NCBI GenBank assembly: GCA_913045445.1 | Contig: CAJWQP010000011.1 | Span: forward strand, 1-35,623 | DNA from: an uncultured Nitrospina sp. | GTDB lineage: Bacteria > Nitrospinota > Nitrospinia > Nitrospinales > VA-1 | Reading direction: 5' to 3' | DNA length: 35,623 nt | Shown: piece after piece, positions 9,341 through 31,515 of the stretch | How the letters are laid out: every line of letters begins with the position of its first letter | How positions within the stretch are numbered: the stretch's first letter is position 1 | The notes under the pieces: model-generated | Seen by the model: only the letters and a program-made list of their open reading frames with translations | Told to the model about the DNA's origin: nothing | The model's database searches: none | Program-made: the position numbers and the translations under genes

Positions 9341-10855
9341 ATGAGAGTTGTTGGTGATATCCCCAGATTGAATGCCAGAAGGTATCCTGAAAAAATAGCT
9401 TTGATTATGGATGAAAAGCATATGACATTTCAAGAGCTTGATGAGATGTCTAACAGGATAGCAAATGGCTTGATCTCTTTAGGAGTCAAACCTGGTGATA
9501 AAATAGCAGTCATGGCGCAGAACTGTCTGGAGTTCCCTCTACTGGTATATGCTATAGCTAAATGTGGCGCAGTATTTGTCCCGGTTAATTTTCGATATGG
9601 AAAAAAAGAATTGATTTATGTGATTGGCAATTGCAAACCGAAAATAATTTTTTTCGGTTCTGAAAATGCTTTACTTGTAAAACAGGCCTCTTCTGATTTT
9701 TCTGGCGATACAAAAATGTTTGCAATTTCAAGGGAAAATTTATTTTACGAACAAACAAAAGCTCAACCTTTGGTGCAAGTTGATCCTGATTCACCGGCAA
9801 TGCTCATGTATACAAGTGGTACAACAGGATTCCCAAAAGGAGTTCTTTATTCACATTCAGCTTATTTATCTGTCTATGTCGGCATGGCTATTGAGGGAGA
9901 TCTCAAACGTGAAGAAGTCACCATGGTAGCTTTGCCACTTTTCCACAATGGTGGTTTAAATGCACTGCTCCAACCTACATTAATGTTAGGTGGTTCAGTT
10001 GTAATCATGCGCAAGGGTTTTGAACCACATGCCATATTAGAAGCAGTACAACGTTATAAAGTTACAATGACAATGTGGGTTCCAACCATGTTGATCATGC
10101 TTACCAGCCATCCTGGTGCATCAGATTATGATCTGAGATCTCTTGAAAAAATCTGGTATGGATCTTCACCAATAAGTCCTTCAGTATTAAAAGCTTCCAA
10201 AAAACTTTTCCATGCAAAGTTTTACCAGTGGTATGGTCAGACCGAAACAGGGATGAACTCCATATTGAGACCTGAAGACCATATCGAACATTCAAATTAT
10301 ACAGGAAGAGAGATATTTAATGCAGAAATACGGATAATTGATGAAAAGGGAGATGATGTGCCAAAAGGTGAAATAGGTCAGATTATTTCAGCCCAGAAAC
10401 CTTTAGGGATGCTTGAATACTTCAATATGGAAGATAAGACAAAAGAGACAATTCGTGATGGCTGGATTTACACAGGTGATCTTGCAAGAGTTGAAGGTAA
10501 TGGTTTTTTCACTATAGTAGACCGCATGAAAGATATGATTATCAGTGGTGCTGAAAATATTTATCCAAAAGAGGTGGAAGATGTTATCTGCAACCATCCT
10601 GATGTGATAGAGACTGCAGTTATCGGAATTCCTGATGATATCTATGGAGAATCTGTTCTTGCTGTTGTTGTACTTAAAAAAGAAAAACAGTTAACTGAAG
10701 CTGATCTTATAGAATTTTGCACTCATCATCTGGCTCGATATAAAAAGCCCAAAAAAATTGTATTTACAGATGAATTGCCAAAAAATGCAGCAGGCAAAGT
10801 TGCCAAGAATGTTATTCGTGAGCCATACTGGACAGGCAGAAAAGAGATAATTTGA
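9341..10855 (+). CDS. AMP-forming acyl-CoA synthetase (class I adenylate-forming)
   Basis: 504 aa, full length. The P-loop is MYTSGTTGFPKG (156-167), followed by WYGQTETG, the Asp in GWIYTGD, the hinge DRMKDMIISGAENIYPKEVE and the catalytic Lys in PKNAAGKV. This family activates a carboxylic acid to its CoA thioester via an acyl-adenylate. AGGAG lies before the ATG. Its position after an acid importer and before SDR, DUF35 and thiolase genes indicates activation of the imported acid. The acyl substrate (medium-chain, branched or aryl) cannot be read from the motifs. Confidence 0.92.
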   Translation: MRVVGDIPRLNARRYPEKIALIMDEKHMTFQELDEMSNRIANGLISLGVKPGDKIAVMAQNCLEFPLLVYAIAKCGAVFVPVNFRYGKKELIYVIGNCKPKIIFFGSENALLVKQASSDFSGDTKMFAISRENLFYEQTKAQPLVQVDPDSPAMLMYTSGTTGFPKGVLYSHSAYLSVYVGMAIEGDLKREEVTMVALPLFHNGGLNALLQPTLMLGGSVVIMRKGFEPHAILEAVQRYKVTMTMWVPTMLIMLTSHPGASDYDLRSLEKIWYGSSPISPSVLKASKKLFHAKFYQWYGQTETGMNSILRPEDHIEHSNYTGREIFNAEIRIIDEKGDDVPKGEIGQIISAQKPLGMLEYFNMEDKTKETIRDGWIYTGDLARVEGNGFFTIVDRMKDMIISGAENIYPKEVEDVICNHPDVIETAVIGIPDDIYGESVLAVVVLKKEKQLTEADLIEFCTHHLARYKKPKKIVFTDELPKNAAGKVAKNVIREPYWTGRKEII

Positions 10856-10873: not shown

Positions 10874-11614
10874 ATGAAACTAAAAGATAAAGTTGCTCTT
10901 GTTACAGGAGCTGGAGGTGATCTTGGACGCGGTATGGCACTTGAATTTGCCAAAGAGGGAGCAAAAGTTGTAGTCAATGATATTAATGGTGAAAAAGCCG
11001 GAGAAACCGTTCAAATGATTACTTCCAAAGGAGATATTGCCACAGGTGATTCCTCTGATCTCACAGACAGCAAAGCTGTTCTTAAGATGGTTGATAAAGT
11101 TATCAAAGAAAATGGAGATCTCCACATTCTTGTTAACAGTGCCGGTGATATAAGGGATGCCCAGTTAGTCAAAATGAGTGATGAAGAGTGGGATTTTGTC
11201 CTGGATCTTAATTTGAAGGCAAGTTTTGTCTGTGCACGAGCTGTTGCACCACATATGATTAAAAAGCGTTACGGGAAAATACTCAATTTATCCTCAATGG
11301 CATACAAAGGAAATATTGGCCAGGTTAACTATACCTCGGCAAAAGCTGGTGTTGTTGGTCTGACACAGGCTCTCGGTCTTGAACTTGCCAGATACAATAT
11401 TAATGTCAACTGTATTGCACCAGGGCTTATCAATACTCCTAAAAGTGCAACTCTGGATGAAAGAGTGAGGAACTATCTGATTAAAAAAATACCAATGCAA
11501 TGCATGGGTGAGATTACTGATATAGCAAAAACTGCGCTCTTTCTTGTGTCTGATGATGCCCAATTTATTACCAGACAGATAATACATGTAAGTGGCGGTA
11601 TGGAAGGGTTCTAA
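10874..11614 (+). CDS. Short-chain dehydrogenase/reductase (SDR) 2, FabG-like
   Basis: 246 aa. TGAGGDLG lies at 11-18 and NSAG (a variant of NNAG) at 88-91. The catalytic set is Ser140/141, Tyr153 and Lys157 in LSSMAY...NYTSAK, followed by INVNCIAPGLINTP. The length and the N/C-terminal layout match FabG or 3-hydroxyacyl-CoA dehydrogenase-type SDRs. Asp36 after beta-2 (VVVNDI) favours NAD(H). It probably makes the 3-keto substrate for the thiolase two genes downstream. It is distinct from SDR 1, so the pathway may have two alcohol/keto steps or two stereospecific enzymes. Confidence 0.88.
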   Translation: MKLKDKVALVTGAGGDLGRGMALEFAKEGAKVVVNDINGEKAGETVQMITSKGDIATGDSSDLTDSKAVLKMVDKVIKENGDLHILVNSAGDIRDAQLVKMSDEEWDFVLDLNLKASFVCARAVAPHMIKKRYGKILNLSSMAYKGNIGQVNYTSAKAGVVGLTQALGLELARYNINVNCIAPGLINTPKSATLDERVRNYLIKKIPMQCMGEITDIAKTALFLVSDDAQFITRQIIHVSGGMEGF

Positions 11615-11661
11615 AATTCAGATAATTGACAAATATAAGAAATTCAGGAGAGATAAAGCGT

Positions 11662-12123
11662 ATGAATGAAACTTCCAAAAAAGCTTTAGAAGGCAAGGAG
11701 AAATATGCTGTTGTTGTCGAAGCAGGATTGTTTCATTATCCTCTGAACAGAGGAGAGAAACCACATCTTACAGGAAACAGATGCAATATTTGCGATAAAC
11801 GGTTTTTTCCTAAAAGAACCGGCTGCCCATACTGTTTTAAAGATGGTGATATGGAAGATGTCGAGCTTGACAGATATGGCATTATCTATGCCTGTACACT
11901 TGTTCATATCCCATCACCTTCTGGAATCAAAGCTCCCTATGCATATGGCTATGTAGATATCCCAGTTGACAGAATCCGTGTGTTTGGTCTCTTTACAGGA
12001 GCAGAACCCTCTTCATTTCACGCAGGACAAAAAGTAGAGTTGGTTATTGAACCCATAAAGACAGATAAAAATGGGCAAGAAGTTATAGGTTATAAATTTA
12101 AACCAGTTGAAAATAGGCATTAA
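11662..12123 (+). CDS. DUF35 zinc-ribbon/OB-fold protein, thiolase partner
   Basis: The ORF opens at 11626, but ATG 11662 has AGGAG upstream and gives a normal 153-aa protein. Cys41, 44, 55 and 58 (CNIC...CPYC) form a rubredoxin-like zinc ribbon. An OB fold follows (IIYACTLVHIPSP, YAYGYVDIP). DUF35 proteins accompany thiolases, HMG-CoA synthases and ChsH-type hydratases, and in the archaeal thiolase/HMGCS complex the DUF35 subunit bridges the two enzymes and binds CoA. The gene ends two bases before the thiolase start, so a thiolase-DUF35 complex is very likely. Confidence 0.9.
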   Translation: MNETSKKALEGKEKYAVVVEAGLFHYPLNRGEKPHLTGNRCNICDKRFFPKRTGCPYCFKDGDMEDVELDRYGIIYACTLVHIPSPSGIKAPYAYGYVDIPVDRIRVFGLFTGAEPSSFHAGQKVELVIEPIKTDKNGQEVIGYKFKPVENRH

Positions 12124-12124
12124 A

Positions 12125-13312
12125 ATGAGGGACGTATATTTAGGTGGCGTTGGAATGACTGTTTTCGGGAAACATCTCGCGAGGCGTCTCAGGGATTTAG
12201 GGCGTGAGGCATGTTTGAAGGCTATTGAAGAAAGCAGAATACATCCAAAAGAAATTCAGGCAGGATATTGTGCCAATGCATTAGGGTCGGCAATTCAGGG
12301 TGAAACAGGAGTAGGGCAAAATGTTTTGTGGGAATTGGGTATTAATAAGATTCCCATTATCAATATCGAGAATGCATGCGCTTCCGGGTCTACTGCCCTT
12401 CGGGAAGGCTGGATGGCAATAGCTGGAGGTTTTTATGATGTAGTACTTGTTGTTGGAGTAGAAAAGGCTGTCATGCCAAAGGGTACTATGCTTAACGTTG
12501 GGGCGGCCGAGCTTGAAACAAAGCTGGGGGATGTTTTTCCAGGATATTTTGCTTTAACTGCAAAAAAACATATGGAAGTTTATGGCACAACAAAAGAGCA
12601 GTTGGCCCAGGTATCAGTTAAAAACCATGCAAACGGGATATTGAATTCATATGCACAATTTAGAAAAGAATTCACTGTGGAAGATGTTTTAAACTCCCCT
12701 ATGATTGCTGATCCAATTACATTGTATTCCTGTTGTCCTAACAGTGACGGTGCAGCGGCAGTCATATTATGCTCTGAAAAAAAAGCCAAAGAGCTTAGTT
12801 TGATCCCGGTAAAAGTAGCAGCATCGGTATTGACAACAGGCTGCTATGAGAACGGAGCTGATATTACAGGATGGGAAGTCGAGAAACTTGCAGCCAAAGA
12901 GGCTTATGATATGGCTTCATTGGGACCAGAGGATCTGAATGTTGTTGAAGTTCATGATGCATTTACTATTTGTGAAATAATTCATTATGAAGATCTTGGA
13001 TTATGTAAATCAGGAGAAGGCGGCCGTTTTATTGAAAAAGGAGCCACTGATTTAGGCGGACTTATTCCTGTGAACCCGAGCGGCGGATTGCTTTCAAAGG
13101 GACATCCTGTAGCTGCTTCCGGAATTGCACAAGTTGTTGAAATCGTCTGGCATCTTCGGGGTCAGGCTGGAAAAAGACAAGTTGAAAATGCTAGAATTGG
13201 TCTTGCACAGATCATGGGTGGTGGTAAAGAAGGAGACACAAAAGCCTGCACTGTCCATATTCTTGTAAAGGTACAAAATACTATAACATTGGATTGTAAG
13301 GATAACATTTAA
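12125..13312 (+). CDS. Thiolase-family acyl-CoA acyltransferase (SCP2/archaeal-type)
   Basis: ATG 12125 gives 395 aa. The nucleophile is Cys85 in NACASGS. His277 lies in VHDAF and His327 in SKGHPVAASG. The second catalytic Cys of classical thiolases (CGGG near the C-terminus) is absent: the sequence is QIMGGG. The HDCF Cys of SCP2 thiolases is Ala here as well. This pattern, with DUF35 next door, suits the DUF35-associated branch. The expected reaction is CoA-dependent cleavage of a 3-ketoacyl-CoA, or the reverse condensation; a retro-aldol type reaction is less likely because Cys85 is kept. It is the last gene of the region 1 operon. Confidence 0.87.
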   Translation: MRDVYLGGVGMTVFGKHLARRLRDLGREACLKAIEESRIHPKEIQAGYCANALGSAIQGETGVGQNVLWELGINKIPIINIENACASGSTALREGWMAIAGGFYDVVLVVGVEKAVMPKGTMLNVGAAELETKLGDVFPGYFALTAKKHMEVYGTTKEQLAQVSVKNHANGILNSYAQFRKEFTVEDVLNSPMIADPITLYSCCPNSDGAAAVILCSEKKAKELSLIPVKVAASVLTTGCYENGADITGWEVEKLAAKEAYDMASLGPEDLNVVEVHDAFTICEIIHYEDLGLCKSGEGGRFIEKGATDLGGLIPVNPSGGLLSKGHPVAASGIAQVVEIVWHLRGQAGKRQVENARIGLAQIMGGGKEGDTKACTVHILVKVQNTITLDCKDNI

Positions 13313-13466
13313 TCTTCAATTTTCTGAAATTAATGGATTGCTCCCCATTGGAATTCCTTTCCATGACAAGTCTGTCAACTTGATAACGGCCAATATTTTT
13401 GCGCTGGGAAAAGGTCCGATTATCCCCATTGACACCGGATATAAATTTACTGGAACTTTAAATTCC

Positions 13467-13709
13467 ATGGCAACATCCGTCTACCGAAAGCGCGAATCTC
13501 GGAACTCTTCTTATTATCTGTGTATGGAGAATCATTTTGAAACATTCGAACAAGTCTATGCGGATCGGTTCGAGCGTAGATACGGATTTTATCGCCCCTA
13601 TGTCGGGCTGGTGATGTTGCGGTACCTTGACTGCAGGATTCTGCACAACGGGTTTGCCCGTGTGCGTTGTGATCACTGTGGTCATGAATATTTCTTGGCT
13701 GACAAATAG
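13467..13709 (+). pseudogene. IS91-family transposase, N-terminal fragment
   Basis: ATG 13467 opens MATSVYRKRES, followed by HFETFEQVYADRFERRYGF, RYLDCRILHNGFARVRC and CGHEYFLA. This is the N-terminal zinc-binding region of IS91/IS801-type rolling-circle transposases. The frame ends after ADK at 13709, just where the next Cys pairs should come; the HUH catalytic domain is not seen. The ORF track joins 43 unrelated-looking residues upstream (from TTG 13338) that I do not recognise. A dead fragment marking a rolling-circle element end or rearrangement. Confidence 0.75.
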
Positions 13710-14663: not shown

Positions 14664-15218
14664 ATGGAAAACGTTCAGATAAACAAAGAAAAACTCATCC
14701 AAGTTGCCACCAATCTCTTTGCCAGTAAAGGTTTCAGCGGAACATCCATTCGTGACATTGCTAACGCGATGAACATGAGCATTTCCAATATTTATCATTA
14801 CTTTGGTAACAAAGAAGGGCTCTTACTGGAGATATTGCAACATTCCGCAATATTGTTGCGCAGGAAGCTTTGCCAAACTTCAGATCCAAACCTTGAACCC
14901 CTAGAACGCTTTAAACGGCTCCTAAATTCCCATCTCCAGCATTCTGTCGAAGGATCAGCAGTATCGACATATTTCAATATTTTGGGGGTAATTAATTGGG
15001 CGCTGCGATGGTATCGACCTGATGGAAAATTAAATTTGGAAGAGACAACTGAAGAAGTGGTTTCCTTTATCTTATATGGCGCATTGGGTGGCGATTCTTC
15101 AACTAAAGAAAGTAGGCAACGAATAACCCCCATAAGACCGTCATCGGTTTTGATCGTTTTCCAGAACAAGTTTGGGTTGAGAGGAGGTAAAGGCCATGGG
15201 TTACACGATAGATATTGA
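14664..15218 (+). CDS. TetR-family regulator with shortened effector domain
   Basis: 184 aa. The N-terminal TetR HTH is intact (TSIRDIANAMNMSISNIYHY, about residues 27-46). The C-terminal part FNILGVINWALRWYRPDGK is related to the first TetR (FGILGTVNW...WFNPDK). Between the HTH and this motif there are about 60 residues instead of about 109, so some 49 residues of the ligand-binding domain are missing around HSVEG/SAVSTY. The end is also odd: the last residues are translated from the ribosome-binding site and start of hyuA (overlap 23 bases). DNA binding may survive; ligand response is doubtful. Confidence 0.8.
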   Translation: MENVQINKEKLIQVATNLFASKGFSGTSIRDIANAMNMSISNIYHYFGNKEGLLLEILQHSAILLRRKLCQTSDPNLEPLERFKRLLNSHLQHSVEGSAVSTYFNILGVINWALRWYRPDGKLNLEETTEEVVSFILYGALGGDSSTKESRQRITPIRPSSVLIVFQNKFGLRGGKGHGLHDRY

Positions 15219-17238
15219 TACAGGCGGAACCTTCACTGACGGATTTTTTGTCAATCAGGAGCAGGTGGAAACCGTAAAAGTGCCGACGACACCTCACGAC
15301 CTTACGGTCTGTTTTCTGGAATGTATCAGTGCCGGAGCTGCACGCCTTGGGGTTAAGGTGGAAGATCTCCTATATAAAGTCGACATTATACGTTTTTCCA
15401 ATACAATCGGCACTAATACCATCATCCAAAGGGACGGCAGTAGGTTGGGCCTTCTGGTCTCAGCCGGATGCGAAGATTTAGCGCCAACCCAAAGTGAAGA
15501 AGGCAAAAGTCCACTGGTCATTCCGGAAATGGTGCTCGGGATAGAAGAGAAAACAAGCCCGTCCGGGGAGGTCGTTAAATCGCCGGAGGAGCAGACAATA
15601 ATGGGTGCCGCGCAGAAACTTATCGACCGTGGCGCCCGCTGCCTGGTGGCGGCATTTACCAATTCCGAATTTAATGCCGAAAACGAACGCCTAGTGCGAA
15701 AAACCGTCAAAAACGAATATCCTCGCGATTTTTTGGGCTCGGTACCCGTGTTTTTGTCCTCGGACATCTCACGTCGGTCAGGGACCGCAGAGCGGATCAA
15801 TGCCGCCGTACTAAATGCCTATATTCATGCCAAGCTGGTCAAGCTTTTATACAAGGCGGGTGAGGACCTCCGCCGGAGACTTTACCGTAAGAGCCTCTTT
15901 ATCGTTCATAGCAACGGCGCTGTGGCCAGAGTGGCTAAAACCCGGGCCATATACACCTATAATTCAGGCCCGGCGGCGGGACTGTTGGGCGCCCATTTGA
16001 TTGGCCGATTGTATGAGGCCAAAGATCTGATTTCCGTTGACATGGGCGGTACCTCCTTTGATATCGGGTATGTGCGCAATGGCCAGGCCAGCTATACCCT
16101 CAAGCCTGATATCGAGGGGCTTAGGGTAAATGTGCCTATGTTGGACATCCGATCCCTGGGAGCCGGCGGAGGATCCATTGCCTCGGTGGTGAACGGAACG
16201 CTTCAAGTCGGCCCTCAATCTGCTGGAGCCTTACCGGGTCCGGTGTGCTTTGATTTAGGGGGCATGGAGCCGACGGTGACAGATGCGGACCTCATCCTTG
16301 GCATTTTAGACCCAGACTATTTTCTGGGCGGCACCATGAAGCTCAATTACAAAAAGGCCAGGGAGATTATGGAGGAAAAAGTGGCACAGCCTCTGGGGGT
16401 CTCTGTGGAAACGGCTGCCCGTGAAATCAAAGGCCGAATCGATACATCCATGGGGAGGGAGTTAAAAAATCTGAAAAACAGACTGGGAGGGACTCAGGAT
16501 CCTTTGCTTGTTGTCTATGGAGGGGCTGGCCCGGCCCATTGCTGTGATATGGCAAAGGTTGCCGGACTCAAAAAGATTGTTATTACGCCATTTTCTGCAG
16601 TCTTTTCCGCTTTTTCATCATCAAATATGGATGTGGGGCATGTCTATTATTCACGGGTTGATCTCCCTTTTAACGAAAAAAAGGATTTCAAAGGGATGGC
16701 CCAGTTCATGGCGATCATGGAAAAGGAGGCCGAACGGGATATTCGCGGCGAAGGCTTTTCGTCGGATCAAGCCGAATTCCAATTGGCGCTTTTTGTTGAA
16801 TCAAAGAAGAAGGACATTGAAGCCAAATTTGACGTGGAATACGACCTGTTCAACAATCTCAAGGCAAAAGATGTCAAACGGATAATTAAAACATCCCTTG
16901 AACAAATGGGCTCGAAAAACCTCACCGCGCCCAAAGATCTAATGCTGGCTATGGTAAGTTTGACCGCCCGCTCTGAAGTCGAACATTATAAGATTAGCGA
17001 AATCCCTTCGGCTTCAAAAGATGTGAAGCAGGCCAAAAAAGGCGACCGAAAAATCTTTTTACAAGCAGGCCATAACGCACAGGCAATAGCAGTCTACGAT
17101 AGATCTCGCCTTACAAATGGCCACAGCTTGACGGGCTCGGTAGTGGTCGAGTCGGAGCAGACCACGCTGTTTATTCCAGCTGGATGGAAATTGACTGTGG
17201 ACAAGTATAACAACGCAATCTTGGAGGAGATTTCTTAG
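15196..17238 (+). CDS. HyuA-type subunit 1 (hydantoinase A / ketone carboxylase-like)
   Basis: 680 aa; ATG 15196 with GGAGG upstream. It has an N-terminal Hydant_A_N fold with DTGGTFTD (8-15), the hydantoinase_A core with VDMGGTSFDIG (about 281) and LGAGGGSIA (about 323), and a C-terminal domain. These are the ATP-binding (actin/Hsp70-like) motifs of hydantoinase/oxoprolinase A, acetone carboxylase beta and acetophenone carboxylase subunits. With the gamma-like gene just downstream, a ketone-carboxylase-type role (ATP-dependent activation of the ketone or bicarbonate) fits better than hydantoinase. It is the shorter and more divergent of two HyuA paralogues. Confidence 0.88.
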   Translation: MGYTIDIDTGGTFTDGFFVNQEQVETVKVPTTPHDLTVCFLECISAGAARLGVKVEDLLYKVDIIRFSNTIGTNTIIQRDGSRLGLLVSAGCEDLAPTQSEEGKSPLVIPEMVLGIEEKTSPSGEVVKSPEEQTIMGAAQKLIDRGARCLVAAFTNSEFNAENERLVRKTVKNEYPRDFLGSVPVFLSSDISRRSGTAERINAAVLNAYIHAKLVKLLYKAGEDLRRRLYRKSLFIVHSNGAVARVAKTRAIYTYNSGPAAGLLGAHLIGRLYEAKDLISVDMGGTSFDIGYVRNGQASYTLKPDIEGLRVNVPMLDIRSLGAGGGSIASVVNGTLQVGPQSAGALPGPVCFDLGGMEPTVTDADLILGILDPDYFLGGTMKLNYKKAREIMEEKVAQPLGVSVETAAREIKGRIDTSMGRELKNLKNRLGGTQDPLLVVYGGAGPAHCCDMAKVAGLKKIVITPFSAVFSAFSSSNMDVGHVYYSRVDLPFNEKKDFKGMAQFMAIMEKEAERDIRGEGFSSDQAEFQLALFVESKKKDIEAKFDVEYDLFNNLKAKDVKRIIKTSLEQMGSKNLTAPKDLMLAMVSLTARSEVEHYKISEIPSASKDVKQAKKGDRKIFLQAGHNAQAIAVYDRSRLTNGHSLTGSVVVESEQTTLFIPAGWKLTVDKYNNAILEEIS

Positions 17239-17240
17239 CC

Positions 17241-17720
17241 ATGAAAGTCCGAATCACGGAATACCTGGAAATTGACGTAAAGCGCGAAAAGTGGGTTTGT
17301 GAGCGTTGCGGACATTTATTAATCGACGCCAGCGAAAACTACAAAAAGGGCTGTTTGGTGGCTGAAAAGCCCTTCGAAGAGGTTCATCCGGCCATGGTTG
17401 AGGGCCAAGCGTACAGCTTCAGTCCGGATCCCGAATATGTCCGCCTTTTAGAGTTTTACTGTCCAGGATGCGGCATAATGATTGAAAACGAGTATCTACC
17501 ACCTGGACACCCCATTACACACGACATCCAGTTAGACATTGATGCGTTAAAAAAGCGACTGGGCAAGGGGGAAGGAATATCCGAAAAAATGCTTGAGGCT
17601 ATTTTGACGAAGACCGTAAGGGAAACTGCGGAGAGAGTTACCAAAGGGGAAACCACCGCTACCGTAACTGAGGAGGTTATTAAAAAAACCATCGATGCCC
17701 TGAAAGAGTTGGGAGTCTGA
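17241..17720 (+). CDS. Acetone carboxylase gamma-subunit-like zinc protein
   Basis: 159 aa, starting two bases after hyuA-1. Cys20/Cys23 (CERCG) and Cys74/Cys77 (CPGCG) form a zinc ribbon. The segment EYLPPGHPITHDIQLDID is characteristic of acetone carboxylase gamma subunits (family length about 165 aa). In acetone carboxylase this small subunit completes the alpha2-beta2-gamma2 complex. The C-terminal 50 residues look helical and charged (KTVRETAERVTKGETTATVT). This gene is the best evidence that the neighbouring HyuA/HyuB proteins form a carboxylase rather than a hydantoinase. Confidence 0.82.
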   Translation: MKVRITEYLEIDVKREKWVCERCGHLLIDASENYKKGCLVAEKPFEEVHPAMVEGQAYSFSPDPEYVRLLEFYCPGCGIMIENEYLPPGHPITHDIQLDIDALKKRLGKGEGISEKMLEAILTKTVRETAERVTKGETTATVTEEVIKKTIDALKELGV

Positions 17721-17721
17721 A

Positions 17722-18669
17722 ATGGCTAGTGGCCGTGAACTTTTCAGAAAATTTTTAAATCGTGAACCGCTGTCGCGACCGGTTTTTTTGCCCATGGCAA
17801 GGGGGCTCCTGTCGCGGGTTGAAGACATGCCCATGGAGAAATTGACCTCGGATCCTACCCTATGGGCCAATGGCATAATGAAAACAGCTAAGCTGTTTGG
17901 TTTCGATGGCGTAGTGACGGGATTCGATTTCAGTTTGATGGCAGAGGCCTGTGGCTGCGACATCACCTGGAAAAACGACAGGCCCATCGTCATGTCCCTC
18001 AAGGGCAACTTGAGTCAAAATCCTGAACAAGGCGAACGGATGAGCCATGCCCTGGAGGCCGCCAATAGGTTGTTTGAAGCCTGTCGGCTCGAATTCGCGT
18101 GCGTGGCTGCTTTGACAGGGCCAGTGACCTTAGCCAGTCAGCTTTTCGGAAGAGACGAAGGCCAAGACCACATCCGTGAAGTTAACCGGCCGGTGGTCCA
18201 AATGGTCGAGGCGTTTTGCAAGACGAAGCCGGATGTGTTGATCTTTCTAGAGGGACGTCCCCTGGCACTGGCCGAGCCCAATGCTATTCATCGGCGCATC
18301 TACAACACGCTCAAAAATATCGCGGATTACTACAATATACCGGTCGGCCTGTACCTGCAAGGCTACGATCCTTTGCGACTGAACCAATTTTCATCCCTTA
18401 AGATGGACCTCTATATTCCAGGGCCCTCTTTTGACAATCGCTTACCTCCGGTTGTGGAATTGTTGGCGCTTGGTGAGGACGCCTTGGGCGTCGGACTGGG
18501 GCTGCCACTGGACAATCTCGAAAAGGCCAGGAAAATCATCCGGGAAGGACTTCAACGATACCATGCCAAGGCCGGTCAGGGCTTCTTTTTAACTAGTTTC
18601 GGGCCGGCGGCAAGGGATGTCAATCTCGAAAACCTTCATGAATTGGTCACTGAAATCTGCACCTTGTAA
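17722..18669 (+). CDS. UroD-family (uroporphyrinogen decarboxylase-like) protein
   Basis: 315 aa; starts one base after the gamma-like gene, so coupled. The fold signals are an N-terminal RELFRKFLNREPLSRPVFLP, the FGFDGVVTGFDFSLMAEACG segment and a C-terminal GQGFFLTSFGPAARDVNLEN. It belongs to the UroD/MtaA/CmuA superfamily. The zinc ligands of corrinoid:thiol methyltransferases (HICG motif and later Cys) are replaced by LYLQG and TSFGPA, and the haem-pathway RQAGRY motif is absent. It is therefore probably neither a typical methyltransferase nor HemE. No corrinoid protein is nearby. Role in the carboxylase cluster unknown. Confidence 0.75.
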   Translation: MASGRELFRKFLNREPLSRPVFLPMARGLLSRVEDMPMEKLTSDPTLWANGIMKTAKLFGFDGVVTGFDFSLMAEACGCDITWKNDRPIVMSLKGNLSQNPEQGERMSHALEAANRLFEACRLEFACVAALTGPVTLASQLFGRDEGQDHIREVNRPVVQMVEAFCKTKPDVLIFLEGRPLALAEPNAIHRRIYNTLKNIADYYNIPVGLYLQGYDPLRLNQFSSLKMDLYIPGPSFDNRLPPVVELLALGEDALGVGLGLPLDNLEKARKIIREGLQRYHAKAGQGFFLTSFGPAARDVNLENLHELVTEICTL

Positions 18670-18693
18670 CTTTATCCGGATAGGAGGCGGGTC

Positions 18694-20844
18694 ATGGGTT
18701 ATACAATAAGTATCGATATTGGCGGCACCTTTACCGACTTTTGTGTCAGCCAAGACCACGGGGACACCCATATAACTAAATCTCCGACCACCCACTACGA
18801 TCTTTCAGTCGGTTTTATGAAGGGTATTAAAGAGCTCGCACATATTTATAAATTGGGATTGGATGATTTTTTGCGTCAGACCGACGCCGTGCGCTATTGC
18901 ACAACTTTGGGGACCAACGCCCTTATCGAGAGAACCGGACCCAAACTCGGCCTGATTACAACTTCCGGCTTCGAGGACACCATCTTTCTGGGCCGGGCCC
19001 GTAGCTGGGCGGACGGCGGTACGACGAATGAGAATAAGGACCTCGCCCGCATTGAAAAGCCTGAACCTTTGATATCGCGGGACATGGTTGTGGGCGTGCG
19101 AGAACGAATCGACTCCTTCGGCAATATTATCTGTCCCCTCAATCGGGATGAAGTTTTTGAAAATCTTCAGACTCTGGTTGACCGGGGAGCCATGGGATTC
19201 GTGGTCTGTTTGTTATGGTCTTTTGTGAATCCAGAGCATGAACGCATGGTCAAGGAAATCATTGAAGAAGAATATCCGGAGGATTACCTGGGTTCCATGC
19301 CGGTGATTTTATCGAGTGATGTCTCACCAAAATCTGCCGAATATACACGATTTATCACCACCATCGTCAACGCCTATATTCACGGGGTGATGTCTGATGA
19401 GCTCAACAAGTTGGGGATCGAGCTGCGGGACGGGGGATACAAAAAGCCCCTTATCCTGGTGCATAACACCGGCGGCATGAAGAAGGTGTCTCGGACCCGG
19501 GCGGTTTTGACCCATAATGCCGGTCCTGTAGCCGGACTTCACGGCGCCCTGACTATGAGTAAGATTTACAATTATAACGACACCATCTTCACCGACATGG
19601 GCGGTACCTCCTTTGATATCGGAGTTATTACCGGCGGTCGTCTTCGAACCTATGATTTTATTCCTCTGATTGATCGCTGGCGAACGAATATCCCTGCCAT
19701 CGAGGTCAAATCCATCGGGGCCGGTGGCGGTTCCATAGCATGGGTCAATAAGCTGATGGGAAACGCTTTGGAGGTCGGTCCTCAGTCAGCCGGCTCTATG
19801 CCCGGACCGGCTTGCTATGACCAGGGCGGTCAGGAGGCCACTGTCACCGACGCCGACCTGGTGTTGGGCTATCTCAATCCGGAAAATTATCTGGGGGGTA
19901 AAATGCTGCTTGATCCTGATTTGAGCCGCGAGGCTATCGAGGAAAAGATCGCCCGACCCCTCGGTATCGAGGTGGTTGAAGCGGCCTTGAGGATCCGGCA
20001 AATCATAGACGCCCGCATGGGCCAGGAGGTCTTTAATGAGGTTGCCCTCAAGGGGCACGACCCGCGAAAGTTTGTTCTATTCGCATGCGGCGGAGCAGGA
20101 GCCACCCATGCTTGTGGTTTCGCGCCGTATCTGCAAGTCAAGAAAGTGATCGTTGCAAACTATGCACCGGTCTTCGGTGCCTTCGGTGCATCAACTGTCA
20201 ATGTCCAGCAAGTCTGGGAAAAATCCCGAACGCTCAAAATTTTTCAGTGGGCCACACAGGCCTACTCCGAAGATGTAAATACTTTTAATGGGGTAGTTAA
20301 CGAGCTCAAAAATCTTGCAATTCGTGATCTTCGTTTAGAAGGCTACAAGGAGGATCAAATCCAATTCCGTCTGGAATTGGATATGCGTTTTGGTATGCAG
20401 TACAACTTGACAAAAATTGTGTCACCCCACCTGAATGTCCAAACACCTCAAGACTTCAAGGATATCTGCGACAGATTTAATGAGCAGTATTCAGCCATAT
20501 ATACACCGGAGGCCACCTTTCCAATGGGCGGGATTAATGTAGAGTGCTTTTATCTGACCGCCTTTGTGGAAACACCGGATCCGAGGATTGGAAAGGGTTC
20601 GTGGAAACATAGGCTGAAAGATTCCGAACCGTTAGAATCGGCTCGCCTGACATCCCGGCAGGCATATTGGCCTGAGGCCGGTAAATTTGAAGAAACGCCG
20701 GTTTTTGATCTGGTAAAACTTAAAACAGGCAACATTATTAACGGTTCGGCATTAGTTGAAGCCCCGGATACAACTTATGTCATCGATCCGGATTGGCAGT
20801 TTACGTTGGATGTTTACCACAACGGGATCCTGAAAAGGAATTAG
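18694..20844 (+). CDS. HyuA-type subunit 2 (ketone carboxylase beta-like)
   Basis: 716 aa, very close to acetone carboxylase beta length (about 717). DIGGTFTD lies at 8-15, TTLGTNALIERTG near 70, TDMGGTSFDIG near 300 and SIGAGGGSIAW near 343. A C-terminal domain includes PMGGINVECFYLT. It has a good AGGAGGCGGGTC site. It shares a 29-bp identical DNA stretch over the DMGGTSFDIG codons with hyuA-1. With HyuB downstream it probably forms the catalytic core that phosphorylates and carboxylates a ketone. A hydantoinase/oxoprolinase function cannot be excluded from motifs alone. Confidence 0.88.
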   Translation: MGYTISIDIGGTFTDFCVSQDHGDTHITKSPTTHYDLSVGFMKGIKELAHIYKLGLDDFLRQTDAVRYCTTLGTNALIERTGPKLGLITTSGFEDTIFLGRARSWADGGTTNENKDLARIEKPEPLISRDMVVGVRERIDSFGNIICPLNRDEVFENLQTLVDRGAMGFVVCLLWSFVNPEHERMVKEIIEEEYPEDYLGSMPVILSSDVSPKSAEYTRFITTIVNAYIHGVMSDELNKLGIELRDGGYKKPLILVHNTGGMKKVSRTRAVLTHNAGPVAGLHGALTMSKIYNYNDTIFTDMGGTSFDIGVITGGRLRTYDFIPLIDRWRTNIPAIEVKSIGAGGGSIAWVNKLMGNALEVGPQSAGSMPGPACYDQGGQEATVTDADLVLGYLNPENYLGGKMLLDPDLSREAIEEKIARPLGIEVVEAALRIRQIIDARMGQEVFNEVALKGHDPRKFVLFACGGAGATHACGFAPYLQVKKVIVANYAPVFGAFGASTVNVQQVWEKSRTLKIFQWATQAYSEDVNTFNGVVNELKNLAIRDLRLEGYKEDQIQFRLELDMRFGMQYNLTKIVSPHLNVQTPQDFKDICDRFNEQYSAIYTPEATFPMGGINVECFYLTAFVETPDPRIGKGSWKHRLKDSEPLESARLTSRQAYWPEAGKFEETPVFDLVKLKTGNIINGSALVEAPDTTYVIDPDWQFTLDVYHNGILKRN

Positions 20845-20890
20845 ATTTGACTGGACTTCTGTGTATAACTGTATATAAGGGAGGCGAATC

Positions 20891-22963
20891 ATGAGTGCAA
20901 TGGTTTACGGTAGAGACACGGAAGTCGTTAAAAGGCTCAAGCCTGAACCCGTGACTTCAGAGGAGCGGGCAGCCCAAAAAAAAATCAATGATGTGGATTT
21001 CGAAATTTTTCACCACAAGATGAACATGATCGCCCAGGAGGGCAAAGAGACAACCATGAAGCTGGGCGCTTCTTCAGGGATGCGCTGGGGCGACGTGGCT
21101 TTCGGGATTTACACCAGCCAGGGAGATCTATCAGTGGTCGCCACAGGCATTTGGTTTCACGCGGTTTTGGGCCAGATACCTGTGAAATACATTGTTAAGC
21201 ACTGGGTCAATGAAGCTTCGGTCGGCGTCAAGGAAGGAGATTCATTCTTCTTTAATGACCCATTTTATGGCGGTGTCCACGGGGCTGATATGGGCCTGTG
21301 CGTGCCCGTATATTACGAGGGCAAATTGGTTTGTTTTACAGGGGCCATTGTTCATACCGGGGAATGTGGCGGCAGTGAACCCGGCGGTCTGGTGGGCAGC
21401 GCGCGTTCCAAATATGACGAGGGTATGCTGGTTCCGCCAATAAAGATTGGTGAAAATTATACCCTTAAGGAAGATTTATTAAATATGTTTGCGGCCATGA
21501 ACCGTGATCCACGCACTATGATCCTCGATATCAAAGCCCGTCTGGCTGCCAGCCGGATTGCACAGCGACGGATTGTCGAATTGATAGATCAGAAAGAAGA
21601 GGCGTTTTTTATTGGGGCATTGAGGCGTATCCTAACAATAACCTCCGAGGCAGCAAAAAAGAAAGTCCGTCTCTTAAACGACGGGGTTTTCCGGCAACCC
21701 CGCTTTATGGATACAGTGGGCCCGGAACCGGCCCTCACCAAGATTGACATCACACTGACCAAAAAAGATGACACTATCAAATTTACTTTCAAAGATACGA
21801 CACCCATGCTCCCGGACAAACCTTTAAATACCTTTTTTCAGGGTATTGTCGGACTTTCCATGGTTTATTTCTGTGGTTGGTTCTTCCATGATCTTCCCGC
21901 CAATAACGGTTTGCTGGAAACATTGGAGTGGGAGTTTCCAGAAAACTCACTGATAAATGCCCAGGGTGATGTACCGACATCGGTCTCTCCTTTTACCCAA
22001 ACCTGTTTTGCCCATGGAATGTTCCTTTGTGGTGCCCGGATGACGTACCATCTGGATCGCTTGCGGGCAGTAGCAGCCTGGTTCCAGGGATTCGGGGTGC
22101 CGATTTATGGCGGTATGAATCAGTGGAATGAGCCGATGGCCGACATTACCCCAGAAATTAATGCCACTGGAGCAGGGGCCCGGCCTGACAAAGACGGGGT
22201 TGACGGCGCCGGTGCATACTTTGCCACTATGAGTGATTGTTCAGATGTGGAAACTACCGAGTCAGATCGACCGTTTCTATATCTGTTCCGCAATTATTTT
22301 AAAAACTCCTATGGCCACGGGAAATTTCGAGGTGGCGCCGGCGTTGGTTTTGGGTTGATGATGCATCATGTGCCCTGGGTGGCCATGGGAAGTTTCGGAT
22401 ACGGCTCCAAGTTTCCCTCCACGCTTGGAATCTTTGGAGGGTACGCCGTACCGCCAATGTTTATCCGAACCGTAGACGGGAGCAATGTGAAGAAACTTTT
22501 GGCCAAAGGCAGCACTTCGCTGCCTAACACGATGGACAAAGTATATGATTGGGAAAATCCAGAACAAGGCAGGGAGATGCACCAGCACGTCACCATGCCC
22601 ATCAGACCTGTGATGAACGGTGATACATTTTATGTCCCTGTCGGTGGAGGCGCCGGCTACGGCGACCCATTGGAACGTGACCCCGAAGCCGTATTGGAAG
22701 ATTTGCAAAACGGGATAACGACCCATTGGGCAGCACAAAATATTTACAAAATTGCTTATGATGAACAAAATCTGCGCCTGGATACGGAAACCACGGAGGC
22801 CCTACGAGCGGAGGCGGTGGCCGAGCGGCTAAGACGAGCTAAACCCTATGATAAATTTGAAGTAGATTGGCTCAAACAAAGGCCTTCGGATGAAATCATT
22901 AAATACTACGGAGCCTATCCGAATCCCAGTGAGGGCTCCCCACCAGGACCCCCAGGTTTGTAG
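20891..22963 (+). CDS. HyuB-type subunit (ketone carboxylase alpha-like)
   Basis: 690 aa, GGGAGG before the ATG. Hydantoinase_B hallmarks are FFNDPFYGGVHGADM (about 117-131), HTGECGGSEPGGL, and a C-terminal PVGGGAGYGDPLERDPEAV with the following GIT helix. It is shorter than acetone carboxylase alpha (about 776) but close to acetophenone carboxylase-type and hydantoinase B proteins. It is the single B partner for two A paralogues. It is followed after about 50 bases by the second liv operon, suggesting that the transporter imports the substrate or exports nothing visible. Confidence 0.88.
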   Translation: MSAMVYGRDTEVVKRLKPEPVTSEERAAQKKINDVDFEIFHHKMNMIAQEGKETTMKLGASSGMRWGDVAFGIYTSQGDLSVVATGIWFHAVLGQIPVKYIVKHWVNEASVGVKEGDSFFFNDPFYGGVHGADMGLCVPVYYEGKLVCFTGAIVHTGECGGSEPGGLVGSARSKYDEGMLVPPIKIGENYTLKEDLLNMFAAMNRDPRTMILDIKARLAASRIAQRRIVELIDQKEEAFFIGALRRILTITSEAAKKKVRLLNDGVFRQPRFMDTVGPEPALTKIDITLTKKDDTIKFTFKDTTPMLPDKPLNTFFQGIVGLSMVYFCGWFFHDLPANNGLLETLEWEFPENSLINAQGDVPTSVSPFTQTCFAHGMFLCGARMTYHLDRLRAVAAWFQGFGVPIYGGMNQWNEPMADITPEINATGAGARPDKDGVDGAGAYFATMSDCSDVETTESDRPFLYLFRNYFKNSYGHGKFRGGAGVGFGLMMHHVPWVAMGSFGYGSKFPSTLGIFGGYAVPPMFIRTVDGSNVKKLLAKGSTSLPNTMDKVYDWENPEQGREMHQHVTMPIRPVMNGDTFYVPVGGGAGYGDPLERDPEAVLEDLQNGITTHWAAQNIYKIAYDEQNLRLDTETTEALRAEAVAERLRRAKPYDKFEVDWLKQRPSDEIIKYYGAYPNPSEGSPPGPPGL

Positions 22964-23014
22964 GGGATTAAAGTTAACTTGAATTTGATTAATCTAAATC
23001 AGAAGGAGGAGAAA

Positions 23015-24202
23015 ATGAACAAAATTAAGCTAGGATTTTTTGTCGTATTGGGTTTCATGTTTGTGATAACAGTGAGCCAGAATACCTATGCGCAAGAAGC
23101 AAAGACATTGAAGATTGGCGCTGTTTTTGCACTGACCGGGCCTGCCGCGGCTGGAATAAAAGACTGTATGGACGGTGTGCAGGCAGCGGCAGATTGGATC
23201 AACAAGAAGGGTGGAATCACCGTTAAGGGGCAGCAGTATCTGATAGAAGTCGTGCCTGAGGACAACAAAAGTGCCCCTGATGGCATAGTTGCTGCTGCGA
23301 ACAAACTAGTCTATAAGGACGAGGTAAAATTCATTGTGGGACCGGTTGTGCCGGGTCTATCCATGGCAATGACGCCAATAACGGAGAAAGCCAAAGTATT
23401 GCGGTGCAAGGTTAATGGTACTGGAAACAAGGCAGAGATGAAGCCCGGCATGCTCTATACTTTTTCTACGTTTATGGAAATTCAATATGTTCGTTCAGTA
23501 TATGACTACTTTGTTAAGAGCTATCCAAACGCAAAAAAAATAGCAATAACAGGTCCGGATGAACCCGGGGGGCAGGCTATGGTGGCAGTAGCCAAAAAGG
23601 AGGCTGAGGCGCATGGATTGAAGGTAGTATTTTCTGAGCTTTACCCCTTTGGCACTCAGGATTTTTACCCAATGTTGACCAAGGCGATGGCCCAGAAACC
23701 AGATGTCTTTGACCTAGGCGTAGGCATAGCCCCCTGGTATGCAGGTATCATAAAACAGGCGCGAGAGCTAGGTTTTACAGGGCCAATGTTCGCTCCCTCG
23801 GCTACAGGCAATATCTACCTGATACCGATGCTGGCTGGTAAAGATTTTTCCTACGATATATTTTTCCTAGATGCAGACCTGAAAAGCCCTAAGATGCCAT
23901 CTATTGTAAAGGAAGCAAGACAACAGGTGTCGAATAAATTTGGGGTAGATCTTACATTTGGTCATGGTGCTGGGTGGGAATCCCTATGGTGTCTTGTACA
24001 GGCTATTGAGGCAGCACAAAGCCTTGACACCATCAAGGTGGCAAAAGTCTGGGAGAAAATGAAAAGCATCGAAACATTATACGGAGAAGGAACGATGAGC
24101 GGGTTAAAAGATTTTGGTATTAACCATGTGGTATTGAAGCCGCGTCCTCTTAGCAGACTAGAGAAAGGAGAGATAGAATTTATCAAGTTCATTTCTCCCT
24201 GA
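23015..24202 (+). CDS. livK: ABC transporter substrate-binding protein 2, LivK type
   Basis: The track starts at TTG 22979, but ATG 23015 has AAGGAGGA four bases upstream and exposes a clear signal peptide (MNKIKLGFFVVLGFMFVI, cut after TYA-QEA). The mature protein of about 370 aa begins LKIGAVFALTGPAAAGIKD, the Peripla_BP_6 hallmark. It is only distantly similar to the first LivK (different lobes and C-terminus), so the two importers probably take different ligands. Being linked to the carboxylase genes, it may bind a ketone-derived acid or an amino-acid-like compound. Confidence 0.9.
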   Translation: MNKIKLGFFVVLGFMFVITVSQNTYAQEAKTLKIGAVFALTGPAAAGIKDCMDGVQAAADWINKKGGITVKGQQYLIEVVPEDNKSAPDGIVAAANKLVYKDEVKFIVGPVVPGLSMAMTPITEKAKVLRCKVNGTGNKAEMKPGMLYTFSTFMEIQYVRSVYDYFVKSYPNAKKIAITGPDEPGGQAMVAVAKKEAEAHGLKVVFSELYPFGTQDFYPMLTKAMAQKPDVFDLGVGIAPWYAGIIKQARELGFTGPMFAPSATGNIYLIPMLAGKDFSYDIFFLDADLKSPKMPSIVKEARQQVSNKFGVDLTFGHGAGWESLWCLVQAIEAAQSLDTIKVAKVWEKMKSIETLYGEGTMSGLKDFGINHVVLKPRPLSRLEKGEIEFIKFISP

Positions 24203-24312: not shown

Positions 24313-25167
24313 ATGATCACACAAAGCATACTCAATGGATTGGTGTTGGGGGGGATTTACATTCTGGTAGCTCTGGGCTTGACCCTCATCTTGAGCATTA
24401 TGGGGATCGTGCAACTCGCCCATGGTGAAGTATATATGCTGGGTGCTTATGCTATGTACTATCTTTGCGTTCACGCTGGTCTAAATTTTTTATTGGCCAT
24501 ACTCATATCTGCATTCCTTGTCGGCGGGCTTGGGGTACTCCTGGAGAAATATTTCTTTCGGCCGTTTCGCGGGAAGATGGAGAGAGCCCTCATCATTTCC
24601 ATCGGGCTTATTTTACTGCTTCAAAATGCAGTTCTTGTCATCGCAGGTGGCACGCCAAGAGCGTTTGCGAGCCCGTTTTCAGGGATGATAAGCGTCCTGG
24701 GCGTAACGCTTTCTTTGGAGAGATTAATCGTTATTAGTGTTGCTTTCGGTCTTGTGTTAGTCCTTTTTTTCCTGATTAAAATGACCAAAGTGGGCCAGGC
24801 CATGGTTGCCATTTCCCAGGACAGAGAGGTTGCCGCCCTTCAAGGAATAAACATTGACCGCATTTCATCCATTGCTATGTTTTTAGGTTGTGCCTTCGCG
24901 GCAGTCTCAGGGGCTTTAGTAGGCGCTTTGTTTAGTGTAAGCCCGTTTATGGGGGGCTTTGCTTTGATGAAAGGAATTGCGGTGATCATCTTGGGAGGCA
25001 TGGGAAGCATCCTCGGTGCCGTTCTTGGAGGTCTGCTTTTGGGTTTAATAGACGGCGTAGTTCCCGTGTATTCAACGACTCACATGGCTGGTCTTATTGG
25101 TTTTGGGTTCATTATCCTTATCTTGCTTTTTAAACCCCAGGGAATGTTGGGTCGTGAGTTTGAGTGA
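24313..25167 (+). CDS. livH: ABC transporter permease 2, LivH type
   Basis: 284 aa, membrane-spanning throughout. Signatures are GLVLGGIYILVALGLTLILS at the N-terminus, VQLAHGEVYMLGAYA and the C-terminal IILGGMGSILGAVLGGLLLG ATPase-contact loop. The Shine-Dalgarno is weak (about 110 bases separate it from livK-2). It forms the transport channel with LivM-2, whose start lies within its last codons. Confidence 0.92.
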   Translation: MITQSILNGLVLGGIYILVALGLTLILSIMGIVQLAHGEVYMLGAYAMYYLCVHAGLNFLLAILISAFLVGGLGVLLEKYFFRPFRGKMERALIISIGLILLLQNAVLVIAGGTPRAFASPFSGMISVLGVTLSLERLIVISVAFGLVLVLFFLIKMTKVGQAMVAISQDREVAALQGINIDRISSIAMFLGCAFAAVSGALVGALFSVSPFMGGFALMKGIAVIILGGMGSILGAVLGGLLLGLIDGVVPVYSTTHMAGLIGFGFIILILLFKPQGMLGREFE

Positions 25168-26137
25168 TAAGAAAAAGTCCAAAGGATTGAGGTATGGGGG
25201 TGCAATACTGTTTTTGTTTTCTATACCCTTGATTGTAAGAGGGCAATACACCCTCCATATTCTCATTATGGCTGCCATGAATATTATCCTCGCCAGCAGT
25301 CTCCGTTTAGTTGCCAGTTCAGGTCAGCTTTCCATGGCGCATGGGGGCATGATGACAATTGGCGCCTATACTTCAGCATTGCTGGTGATGAAGCTGGGTA
25401 TTTCATCCTGGGCTGCATTACCTTTAGCCGGCCTAGCTGCAGCAGCTCTAGCATTATTGGTCGGCTTTCCGTTTGTTAGAATAAAGGGAATCTATTTTGC
25501 AATGGTTACTGTTTTTTTAGCGGAGATGATCACACTTACTGCCGAGCACTGGCGGAGCCTTACAGGCGGCAGTTCAGGAGTTGTCAATATCCCCCCGCCC
25601 GACCCACTTGTTATCCCGGGGTTGATAAGCATCGACTTTCCTACTAAGACGGAATTTTATTACTTTATCCTGGTCCTCATGTTAGTGACACTTTTATTTC
25701 TTTACGCAATTGAGCGTTCACGTATTGGACTGACCTTGATCAGTATCCAGCAAACTGAACTTCTGTCTGAGAGTGTGGGTGTTAATACTTCGAGATTCAA
25801 GGTCCTTGCCTTTTGCATCGGTTGCTTTTTTGCGGGTATTGTTGGTAGCTTTTATAGCCAGTACATCAACGTCATCACGCCGCGATCTTTTGAATTTTTC
25901 TTTGCGATCTATATTATTGTCTATATGATAGTGGGGGGAATAAAAAAATTCTCCGGACCTATTTATGGTGCCTTCATTCTCACTATCTTTCCGGAATTCA
26001 TTCGCGCTTTGAAAGAGTTTCAGCCGTTTATTTTTGCAGGCTTGCTCATGCTGGCAATTTTCTTCCTACCTGATGGGCTGGTTGATTTGCGCAGACAATG
26101 GGATAAATTTTATGAGAAGAGGTTCAACCGTGCTTGA
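25154..26137 (+). CDS. livM: ABC transporter permease 2, LivM type
   Basis: The track start (25097) would overlap livH by 71 bases and lacks a ribosome site. GTG 25154 (or TTG 25160) gives a normal protein of about 327 aa beginning VSLSDKKKSKG. Signatures are LRLVASSGQLSMAHGGMMTI, then GAYTSAL and RIKGIYFAMVTVF, with the YMIVGGIKKFSGPIYGA loop near the C-terminus. The overlap with livH implies coupled translation. The exact start is uncertain. Confidence 0.88.
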   Translation: MSLSDKKKSKGLRYGGAILFLFSIPLIVRGQYTLHILIMAAMNIILASSLRLVASSGQLSMAHGGMMTIGAYTSALLVMKLGISSWAALPLAGLAAAALALLVGFPFVRIKGIYFAMVTVFLAEMITLTAEHWRSLTGGSSGVVNIPPPDPLVIPGLISIDFPTKTEFYYFILVLMLVTLLFLYAIERSRIGLTLISIQQTELLSESVGVNTSRFKVLAFCIGCFFAGIVGSFYSQYINVITPRSFEFFFAIYIIVYMIVGGIKKFSGPIYGAFILTIFPEFIRALKEFQPFIFAGLLMLAIFFLPDGLVDLRRQWDKFYEKRFNRA

Positions 26138-27020
26138 GCTGACTTCAGTGACCAAATACTTTGGCGGGTTAGCTGCTGTTGACGACCTTGACCTGGAAAT
26201 TAACAAAGGCGAAATAGTCGGTCTCATAGGGCCCAATGGCGCTGGCAAAACCACCCTGTTTAATCTAATCACCGGTGTCCTGCGGGTTACCGAAGGAAAT
26301 ATACGATTTGAAGATAAAAATATAACCAATAAGAAACCATGCTTAATAGCCGAACATGGGATTGTCAGGACCTTCCAGGAGACCAGCGTGTTTCCTGATT
26401 TCAGTGTAATGCTGAATATTATAGCAGCTTGCCATCTAAATCCCAGAATTGGCTTTCTGGAATCTATCTTCCGGACTTCCAAGTACCACGAGAAAGAAGA
26501 ACATATCGTTGAACGGGCCATGGAGATCATGCAATTCGCTGGACTATGGGAAGTGAAAGATGTACCCGCTAAAAGCCTGCCTCACGGTTATAAAAAAATC
26601 CTGGGCATTGCCATAGCTTTAGCAGCACGTCCCAAGCTTTTATTACTCGACGAGCCATTGTGTGGAATGAACGCCGCGGAGGTAGTTCGAACAAATACGC
26701 TTATACGCAAGGCATGGGAAAGTAGTATTACGCTCCTATTGATCGAGCATAATATGAAAGCGACTATGAGTCTGTGCCAGAGGATTGTGGTCTTAAGCTT
26801 TGGGATGAAGATTGCCGAAGGTCCGCCCCAGCAGATCAAAAAAGATCGTAAAGTGATTCAAGCCTATCTTGGAGCTGCGCGAAAATATGAGGGTCCATTT
26901 CGCTATAGCGAGGAGTTAAAGAAAAGCAAGGAGGATATCCCGGCCAAATCCGAAGATAACGAAAATGCTGCTACAAACGAAAAACATAAAGGTCCATTTC
27001 GCTACAGCCGAGGTTATTAA
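26130..27020 (+). CDS. livG: ABC transporter ATPase 2, LivG type, with C-terminal extension
   Basis: GTG 26130 (VLELTSVTKYFGG), with AGAGG upstream, is preferred to the track start at 26034, which lies inside livM. Walker A is GPNGAGKTT, Q-loop IVRTFQET and Walker B LLLLDEPLCGMN. The signature region is the unusual LPHGYKKILGIAIAL. After the normal ending VIQAYLGAARK the protein continues about 45 residues with GPFRYS occurring twice, 33 residues apart. The second copy is encoded in DNA that is also the start of livF (56-base overlap). The tail is charged and probably disordered. Confidence 0.87.
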   Translation: MLELTSVTKYFGGLAAVDDLDLEINKGEIVGLIGPNGAGKTTLFNLITGVLRVTEGNIRFEDKNITNKKPCLIAEHGIVRTFQETSVFPDFSVMLNIIAACHLNPRIGFLESIFRTSKYHEKEEHIVERAMEIMQFAGLWEVKDVPAKSLPHGYKKILGIAIALAARPKLLLLDEPLCGMNAAEVVRTNTLIRKAWESSITLLLIEHNMKATMSLCQRIVVLSFGMKIAEGPPQQIKKDRKVIQAYLGAARKYEGPFRYSEELKKSKEDIPAKSEDNENAATNEKHKGPFRYSRGY

Positions 27021-30232: not shown

Positions 30233-30355
30233 TCGATATCGAGTAACGGTTTGTGGATTCCGAGGTTCAAAGGTCCGGGGTTGAACGAATTCTTTCCACC
30301 CATGGTGTGGTCAAGATACTGGTGAGGCCTTAAGTAAACGAGGAGTTGCACTGAA

Positions 30356-31450: not shown

Positions 31451-31515
31451 TGCGTAATGCAGGTTTCACGAACTTTAGTACGGATAAAGATACGAGCGCC
31501 GAGGAGCATGGGGAC

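Follow-up and report, generated by a model that had tools for sequence, protein, structure and literature searches.

Acetophenone carboxylase (Apc) of Aromatoleum aromaticum was, by 2017, the sole enzyme of its branch to have been characterised, and its published core is an (alpha alpha' beta gamma)2 complex in which ApcC represents the alpha, ApcA the alpha', ApcD the beta and ApcB the gamma subunit (PMC5214803). The epsilon subunit was termed "elusive" in that study, where it was reported to be missing from some operons, with its close orthologues confined to two other gene clusters (PMC5214803). For sulfate-reducing bacteria a CO/formyl route to ketones has been described in Desulfococcus biacutus. 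In silico analysis of a stretch of 35,623 nucleotides (contig CAJWQP010000011.1 of assembly GCA_913045445.1, here called the window) established that positions 15196-22963 of the forward strand carry five intact, closely spaced open reading frames, separated in the 5' to 3' direction by gaps of 2, 1, 24 and 46 bp (Table 1). The five-gene inventory of the original prediction for this region proved correct, as all open reading frames and Pfam domains were found: the two unequal HyuA proteins (680 and 716 aa) and the single HyuB match Hydantoinase_A (8e-72 and 3e-71) and Hydantoinase_B (2e-83), the UroD-family protein matches URO-D (7.5e-13), and the resemblance of the small Zn protein to a gamma subunit holds at profile level against both Acetone_carb_G (9e-32) and the NCBIfam ApcB model.

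Table 1. Features of the window, by position and predicted product.
Feature	Position	Strand	Evidence
SDR dehydrogenase (possible alcohol-to-ketone step, inferred)	8474..9295	+	Pfam
AMP-forming acyl-CoA ligase (candidate 3-oxoacid:CoA ligase)	9341..10855	+	Pfam, NCBIfam
SDR dehydrogenase, FabG-like	10874..11614	+	Pfam
BbsA/ChsH2-type OB-fold partner of thiolase	11626..12123	+	NCBIfam BbsA 1.3e-26
BbsB-like thiolase (candidate 3-oxoacyl-CoA cleavage)	12107..13312	+	Pfam, NCBIfam
TetR regulator	14664..15218	+	Pfam TetR_N 1.9e-15; usual clade position
ApcA-like HyuA subunit (alpha', predicted bicarbonate kinase), 680 aa	15196..17238	+	NCBIfam ApcA 3.6e-130; PDB 5l9w_b 1.9e-99, 5l9w_B 3e-118
ApcB-like small Zn subunit (gamma in PMC5214803), 159 aa	17241..17720	+	NCBIfam ApcB 1.8e-50; 5l9w_C 3.7e-42
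ApcE (Apc epsilon), predicted UroD/MtaA fold, 315 aa	17722..18669	+	NCBIfam ApcE model 2.6e-9; 9fou profile match; AF2/Foldseek
ApcC-like HyuA subunit (alpha, predicted ketone kinase), 716 aa	18694..20844	+	NCBIfam ApcC 4e-203; 5l9w_B 1.7e-187
ApcD-like HyuB subunit (beta), 690 aa	20891..22963	+	NCBIfam ApcD 2.7e-132; 5l9w_A 7.6e-127
Peripla_BP_6 (Liv-type) solute-binding protein, 15 bp past apcD	22979..24202	+	Pfam 4.8e-49
Liv-type permeases and ATPases, four genes	24313..27672	+	Pfam

NCBIfam and PDB sequence searches returned an Apc subunit (ApcA, ApcB, ApcC, ApcD or epsilon) as the closest solved relative of every protein of the cluster, and not a hydantoinase or oxoprolinase. The window holds the complete core set of Apc, namely two HyuA proteins, one HyuB and one small four-Cys Zn subunit, and both HyuA proteins contain the ASKHA ATP-site motifs published for Apc. 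The R/KERxDsxG alpha fingerprint is present in ApcC only and absent from ApcA, as expected for an alpha' subunit; the 680-aa HyuA scores nearly equally against ApcA and ApcC, and it was assigned as ApcA owing to its position, its NCBIfam ranking and its lack of the fingerprint. In ApcB four invariant cysteines (C20, C23, C74 and C77) and a C-terminal extension were seen in the small-subunit alignment. The metal ligands H150, D153, H175 and E89 of acetone carboxylase correspond to H130, D133, H155 and D68 in ApcD of the window, the glutamate being replaced by Asp, and these D/H/D/H equivalents are conserved in 67-69 of 69 ApcD relatives as well as in ApcD of A. aromaticum. As none of the subunits attains its NCBIfam equivalog cut-off (bits against cut-off 435/1250 for A, 170/250 for B, 676/1500 for C, 442/1500 for D and 37/450 for E), they are considered divergent members of the Apc family. 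It is very unlikely that the cluster instead encodes a hydrolase driven by ATP in the manner of hydantoinases, oxoprolinases or lactamases: these enzymes do fall within the HyuA and HyuB families, and the threonine at the position of Apc L81 is similar to hydantoinase sequence, but hydantoinases consist of two genes only, the present operons consistently add another HyuA, the Zn subunit and epsilon, and a hydantoinase was never the best match of any subunit.

The cluster thus very probably encodes, as judged by sequence comparison, a ketone carboxylase of the Apc type that has five subunits, depends on ATP but not on biotin, and belongs to a distinct clade with the gene order A-B-E-C-D. The original prediction had named the cluster a ketone-carboxylase-like candidate for an undescribed system; the ketone-carboxylase-like complex stands, its subunits matching those of Apc, whereas the claim that it is undescribed does not, the arrangement being the published Apc core (PMC5214803) plus epsilon. 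The identity of the family is therefore already known, and its unusual features are a gene order that places epsilon after B and before C, a clade of its own and changed residues in the pockets. From the homology to Apc, ApcC would be expected to phosphorylate the ketone enol and ApcA to form carboxyphosphate from bicarbonate, while ApcD would hold the protomers together, its conserved D/H/D/H site presumably corresponding to the Mn/Fe site in acetone carboxylase. The role of the Zn subunit ApcB would be structural, and epsilon, with its UroD fold, may dock onto and close the complex and so let the two activated substrates meet. CoA ligation of the resulting 3-oxoacid and its cleavage by an OB-fold/thiolase pair would follow.

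The original prediction regarded the UroD-family gene as an addition that made the system a new one, and this was not borne out, since by profile comparison with the ApcE crystal structure 9fou and by Foldseek search of a predicted model the gene is assigned as Apc epsilon, a protein of predicted UroD fold. The single epsilon sequence matches the NCBIfam ApcE model at 2.6e-9 and 9fou at 2e-4. From an alignment of 40 operon-linked relatives, 34 of which match the ApcE model and 28 URO-D, a family profile was obtained that matches 9fou_A over its full length (residues 8 to 301) at 1.9e-51, a value partly inflated by the inclusion of close relatives of A. aromaticum ApcE in the alignment, and MtaA at 4.9e-12. 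An AlphaFold2 model of epsilon based on 38 sequences (pLDDT 94) gave MtaA as the top Foldseek match in the PDB (TM 0.77 by query length), followed by ApcE and UroD structures. P24, R116, G133, P134, E177, N199 and G258 are nearly invariant in the 40-member alignment, and they include neither His nor Cys, which, as far as the alignment can be read, argues against an MtaA-type zinc site. In this superfamily the catalytic residues are Zn ligands in MtaA and Arg/Asp in UroD. An unrelated corrinoid/CoM methyltransferase, or a true uroporphyrinogen decarboxylase, that came to lie in the operon by chance would account for the Pfam URO-D and MtaA matches and for MtaA as the top Foldseek match, but this explanation is scarcely credible in view of the matches of 34 of the 40 family members to the ApcE model and of the profile to the ApcE structure, the persistence of the gene as a member of the operon in different phyla, where it takes any of three positions, and a family alignment without a conserved His or Cys. 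As 9fou was released in December 2025, the fold of epsilon is probably already familiar to those who deposited the structure; our literature search found no open paper on the ApcE structure and no paper linking Apc with UroD.

The synteny of the cluster was determined by scanning GTDB genomes with the small-subunit alignment, which yielded 526 relatives, of which the best 80 loci were kept and mapped by profile searches, and the five genes were found to be kept together in distant genomes. Among these best 80 of 526 relatives, all five genes occur in the order A-B-E-C-D at 34 loci and in the order A-B-C-D-E at a further 28. A haloarchaeal plasmid has the order A-E-B-C-D. The A-B-E-C-D loci, which usually have a TetR gene ahead of them and AMP-ligase, OB-fold protein and thiolase genes behind, belong to Desulfobacterota, other Deltaproteobacteria and Alpha-, Beta- and Gammaproteobacteria, a range that extends from sulfate reducers through aerobic proteobacteria; the hosts of the A-B-C-D-E order are Acidobacteria, Actinobacteria, Chloroflexi and Burkholderiales. 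Epsilon is near-universal in the complete Apc operons of this sample by profile search, being present in 59 of the 62 that have enough flank (32 + 26 + 1; best 80 of 526 relatives), with scores of only 23-53 bits in three of the plasmid operons. In quick trees with SH-aLRT support only, in which the placement of some long rows outside the clade is uncertain, the A-B-E-C-D rows form a single group for ApcC (35/35, support 100) that includes the window, and are likewise grouped for ApcD (32/32); for ApcA the group needs one change when L019 and L074, two loci truncated directly after apcB, are left unlabelled. In the ApcC tree the A. aromaticum enzyme lies among the A-B-C-D-E operons, far from the window. 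No characterised member or biochemistry of the A-B-E-C-D clade was found in the literature, and the literature on NaphS2 and Desulfococcus multivorans makes no mention of the cluster. Four Defluviicoccus loci (L069, L073, L075 and L076) have a gene resembling apcB (about 58-61% identity) around which ApcA, ApcC and ApcD were not found, and genome G078 (L011, Desulfobacula) has three ApcB-like loci, which suggests several carboxylase clusters.

The ketone pocket of the Apc alpha subunit has been tentatively assigned, from a ketone-free structure, to L81, F281, I333, Q344 and T345 (PMC5214803), and when these roles are moved by sequence alignment onto the clade, ApcC of the window has T, H, I, E and V at the five positions. 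The substitutions L81T, F281H and Q344E are present in 35/35 clade members, T345V in 33/35 and a change of R279 to L in 34/35, whereas A. aromaticum-like operons retain L81, F281 and T345; the bicarbonate pocket predicted for alpha' carries E248N and K281D in 37/37 clade members. Owing to these clade-wide changes acetophenone is probably not the substrate of the A-B-E-C-D clade, which probably acts on a more polar ketone. A strict acetophenone carboxylase forming benzoylacetate would have the same subunit set as the A. aromaticum enzyme. Such an activity would fit the resemblance of the thiolase and its OB-fold partner to benzoylsuccinyl-CoA thiolase, and also the occurrence of TIGR03200, the ring hydrolase of anaerobic benzoyl-CoA metabolism, at scores exceeding its cut-off in 13 of the 24 genomes searched. 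It is nevertheless quite unlikely, as the hydrophobic L81 and F281 have become T and H throughout the clade, A. aromaticum ApcC is placed far from the window, and the scores fall far under the equivalog cut-offs. TIGR03200 is moreover also present in 63 of 194 sampled Desulfobacterales, so that the association is weak, and co-occurrence of the benzoyl-CoA pathway was dropped as a non-discriminating substrate clue. The carboxylation of small aliphatic ketones such as acetone or butanone, by which an Apc-type machine would do the job of acetone carboxylase (Acx), accords with the more polar pocket, the conserved Acx metal ligands and the occurrence of the clade in sulfate reducers, a group with known ketone use. 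We regard it as unlikely, since Acx lacks epsilon and contains a single HyuA subunit, every subunit is nearer to Apc than to Acx, and the described acetone route of sulfate reducers is a formylation. The known route for hydroxyaryl ketones such as acetovanillone depends on biotin and is not known to involve HyuA/HyuB-type proteins. It was considered and set aside as non-homologous (acetovanillone, PMC9618137), and a literature search found no paper on the carboxylation of isoprenoid ketones. The preferred reading is of an Apc-type enzyme with a probably more polar ketone substrate.

The genes that surround the cluster bear on the later steps of such a pathway. Ligase, OB-fold and thiolase genes lie downstream of apcD in most clade members by profile mapping, whereas the ligase of the window lies upstream and is not orthologous to the usual ligase of the clade (about 30% identity), and the thiolase of the window is 48-53% identical to the post-apcD thiolases of the clade, which share 55-73% identity among themselves. 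The case for CoA ligation and thiolysis is weaker for the window owing to this non-orthologous upstream ligase and the diverged OB-fold and thiolase proteins, and ligation and thiolysis of the 3-oxoacid by the upstream genes is a plausible assignment. The Liv-type binding protein that follows apcD would fit a substrate that needs uptake. The TetR protein adjoining apcA is without about 54 internal amino acids of its ligand-binding domain (tblastn against the TetR proteins of L011, L018 and L020), and as a regulator it may be defective or unable to respond to an inducer. Just upstream of the intact first TetR, its N-terminal part recurs as an interrupted second copy (125-277 and 376-963). Transposase remnants, a DDE_Tnp_1_4 element at 2672-3436 (minus strand) and an IS91-type Zn-binding domain at 13338-13709, flank the first transporter/ligase/thiolase block, and the GC content is 0.39 in the first 13.5 kb and 0.49 from 13.5 to 24 kb. 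An MmgE/PrpD-family gene (4600-5976) is situated within a Liv-type transporter cluster, with LivH on one side and LivM on the other, and a complete E1alpha-E1beta-E2-E3 2-oxoacid/acetoin-type dehydrogenase cluster (28266-32916) follows the second Liv transporter.

With regard to its host, the contig is probably mis-binned in GCA_913045445.1. A total of 34.6 kb of the window matches a contig of Desulfobacteraceae bacterium UBA2156, the compared parts being 99.9-100% identical, and UBA2156 is classified in Desulfobacterales, whereas GCA_913045445.1 belongs to a different group, represented by 77 genomes in our sample, of which only two, itself included, have ApcB. Matches of the AMP-ligase type number 4 in GCA_913045445.1 as compared to 31 in UBA2156, those of the enoyl-CoA-hydratase type 1 as compared to 15, and the nearest ApcC, ApcD and ApcA relatives of the window in the trees include Desulfobacterales. 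The tetranucleotide comparison for the whole window was ambiguous (0.59 versus 0.63).

A large clade with uniformly changed pockets, and a near-universal epsilon of UroD/MtaA fold, are now defined, and these features make substrate specificity, the role of epsilon and ketone carboxylation in sulfate reducers directly testable. It is an evenly balanced possibility that the A-B-E-C-D clade is a ketone carboxylase in its own right, acting on a more polar substrate peculiar to it, providing sulfate reducers with an ATP-dependent carboxylation beside the CO/formyl route of D. biacutus, and with the UroD-fold epsilon as a near-universal partner of Apc. Among described systems, ApcABCDE of A. aromaticum (PDB 5l9w for the core, 9fou for epsilon; PMC5214803) shares with the window all five subunit types, the ATP motifs of both HyuA proteins, the alpha fingerprint, the four-Cys small subunit and the UroD-fold epsilon, and differs in having the order A-B-C-D-E; the window has the order A-B-E-C-D, belongs to a separate, long-stemmed clade in which both predicted pockets are changed invariantly, and has a TetR regulator adjoining apcA. 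Acetone carboxylase AcxABC (PDB 5svb, 5m45) has homologues of HyuA, HyuB and the Zn gamma subunit and the same kind of HyuB metal ligands, but just a single HyuA, no alpha' or epsilon, and much lower sequence scores. The HyuAB hydantoinases, oxoprolinases and caprolactamases have the HyuA and HyuB folds and an ATP-dependent phosphorylation of carbonyl or amide groups in common with the cluster, yet comprise two subunits, with no Zn subunit, second HyuA or epsilon. The MtaA/UroD superfamily (PDB 4ay8 and the UroD structures) is similar to epsilon in predicted fold, with a TM of 0.77 to MtaA, but epsilon has no conserved His/Cys zinc ligands in the alignment, many of its members are shorter, and its gene is found within a carboxylase operon.
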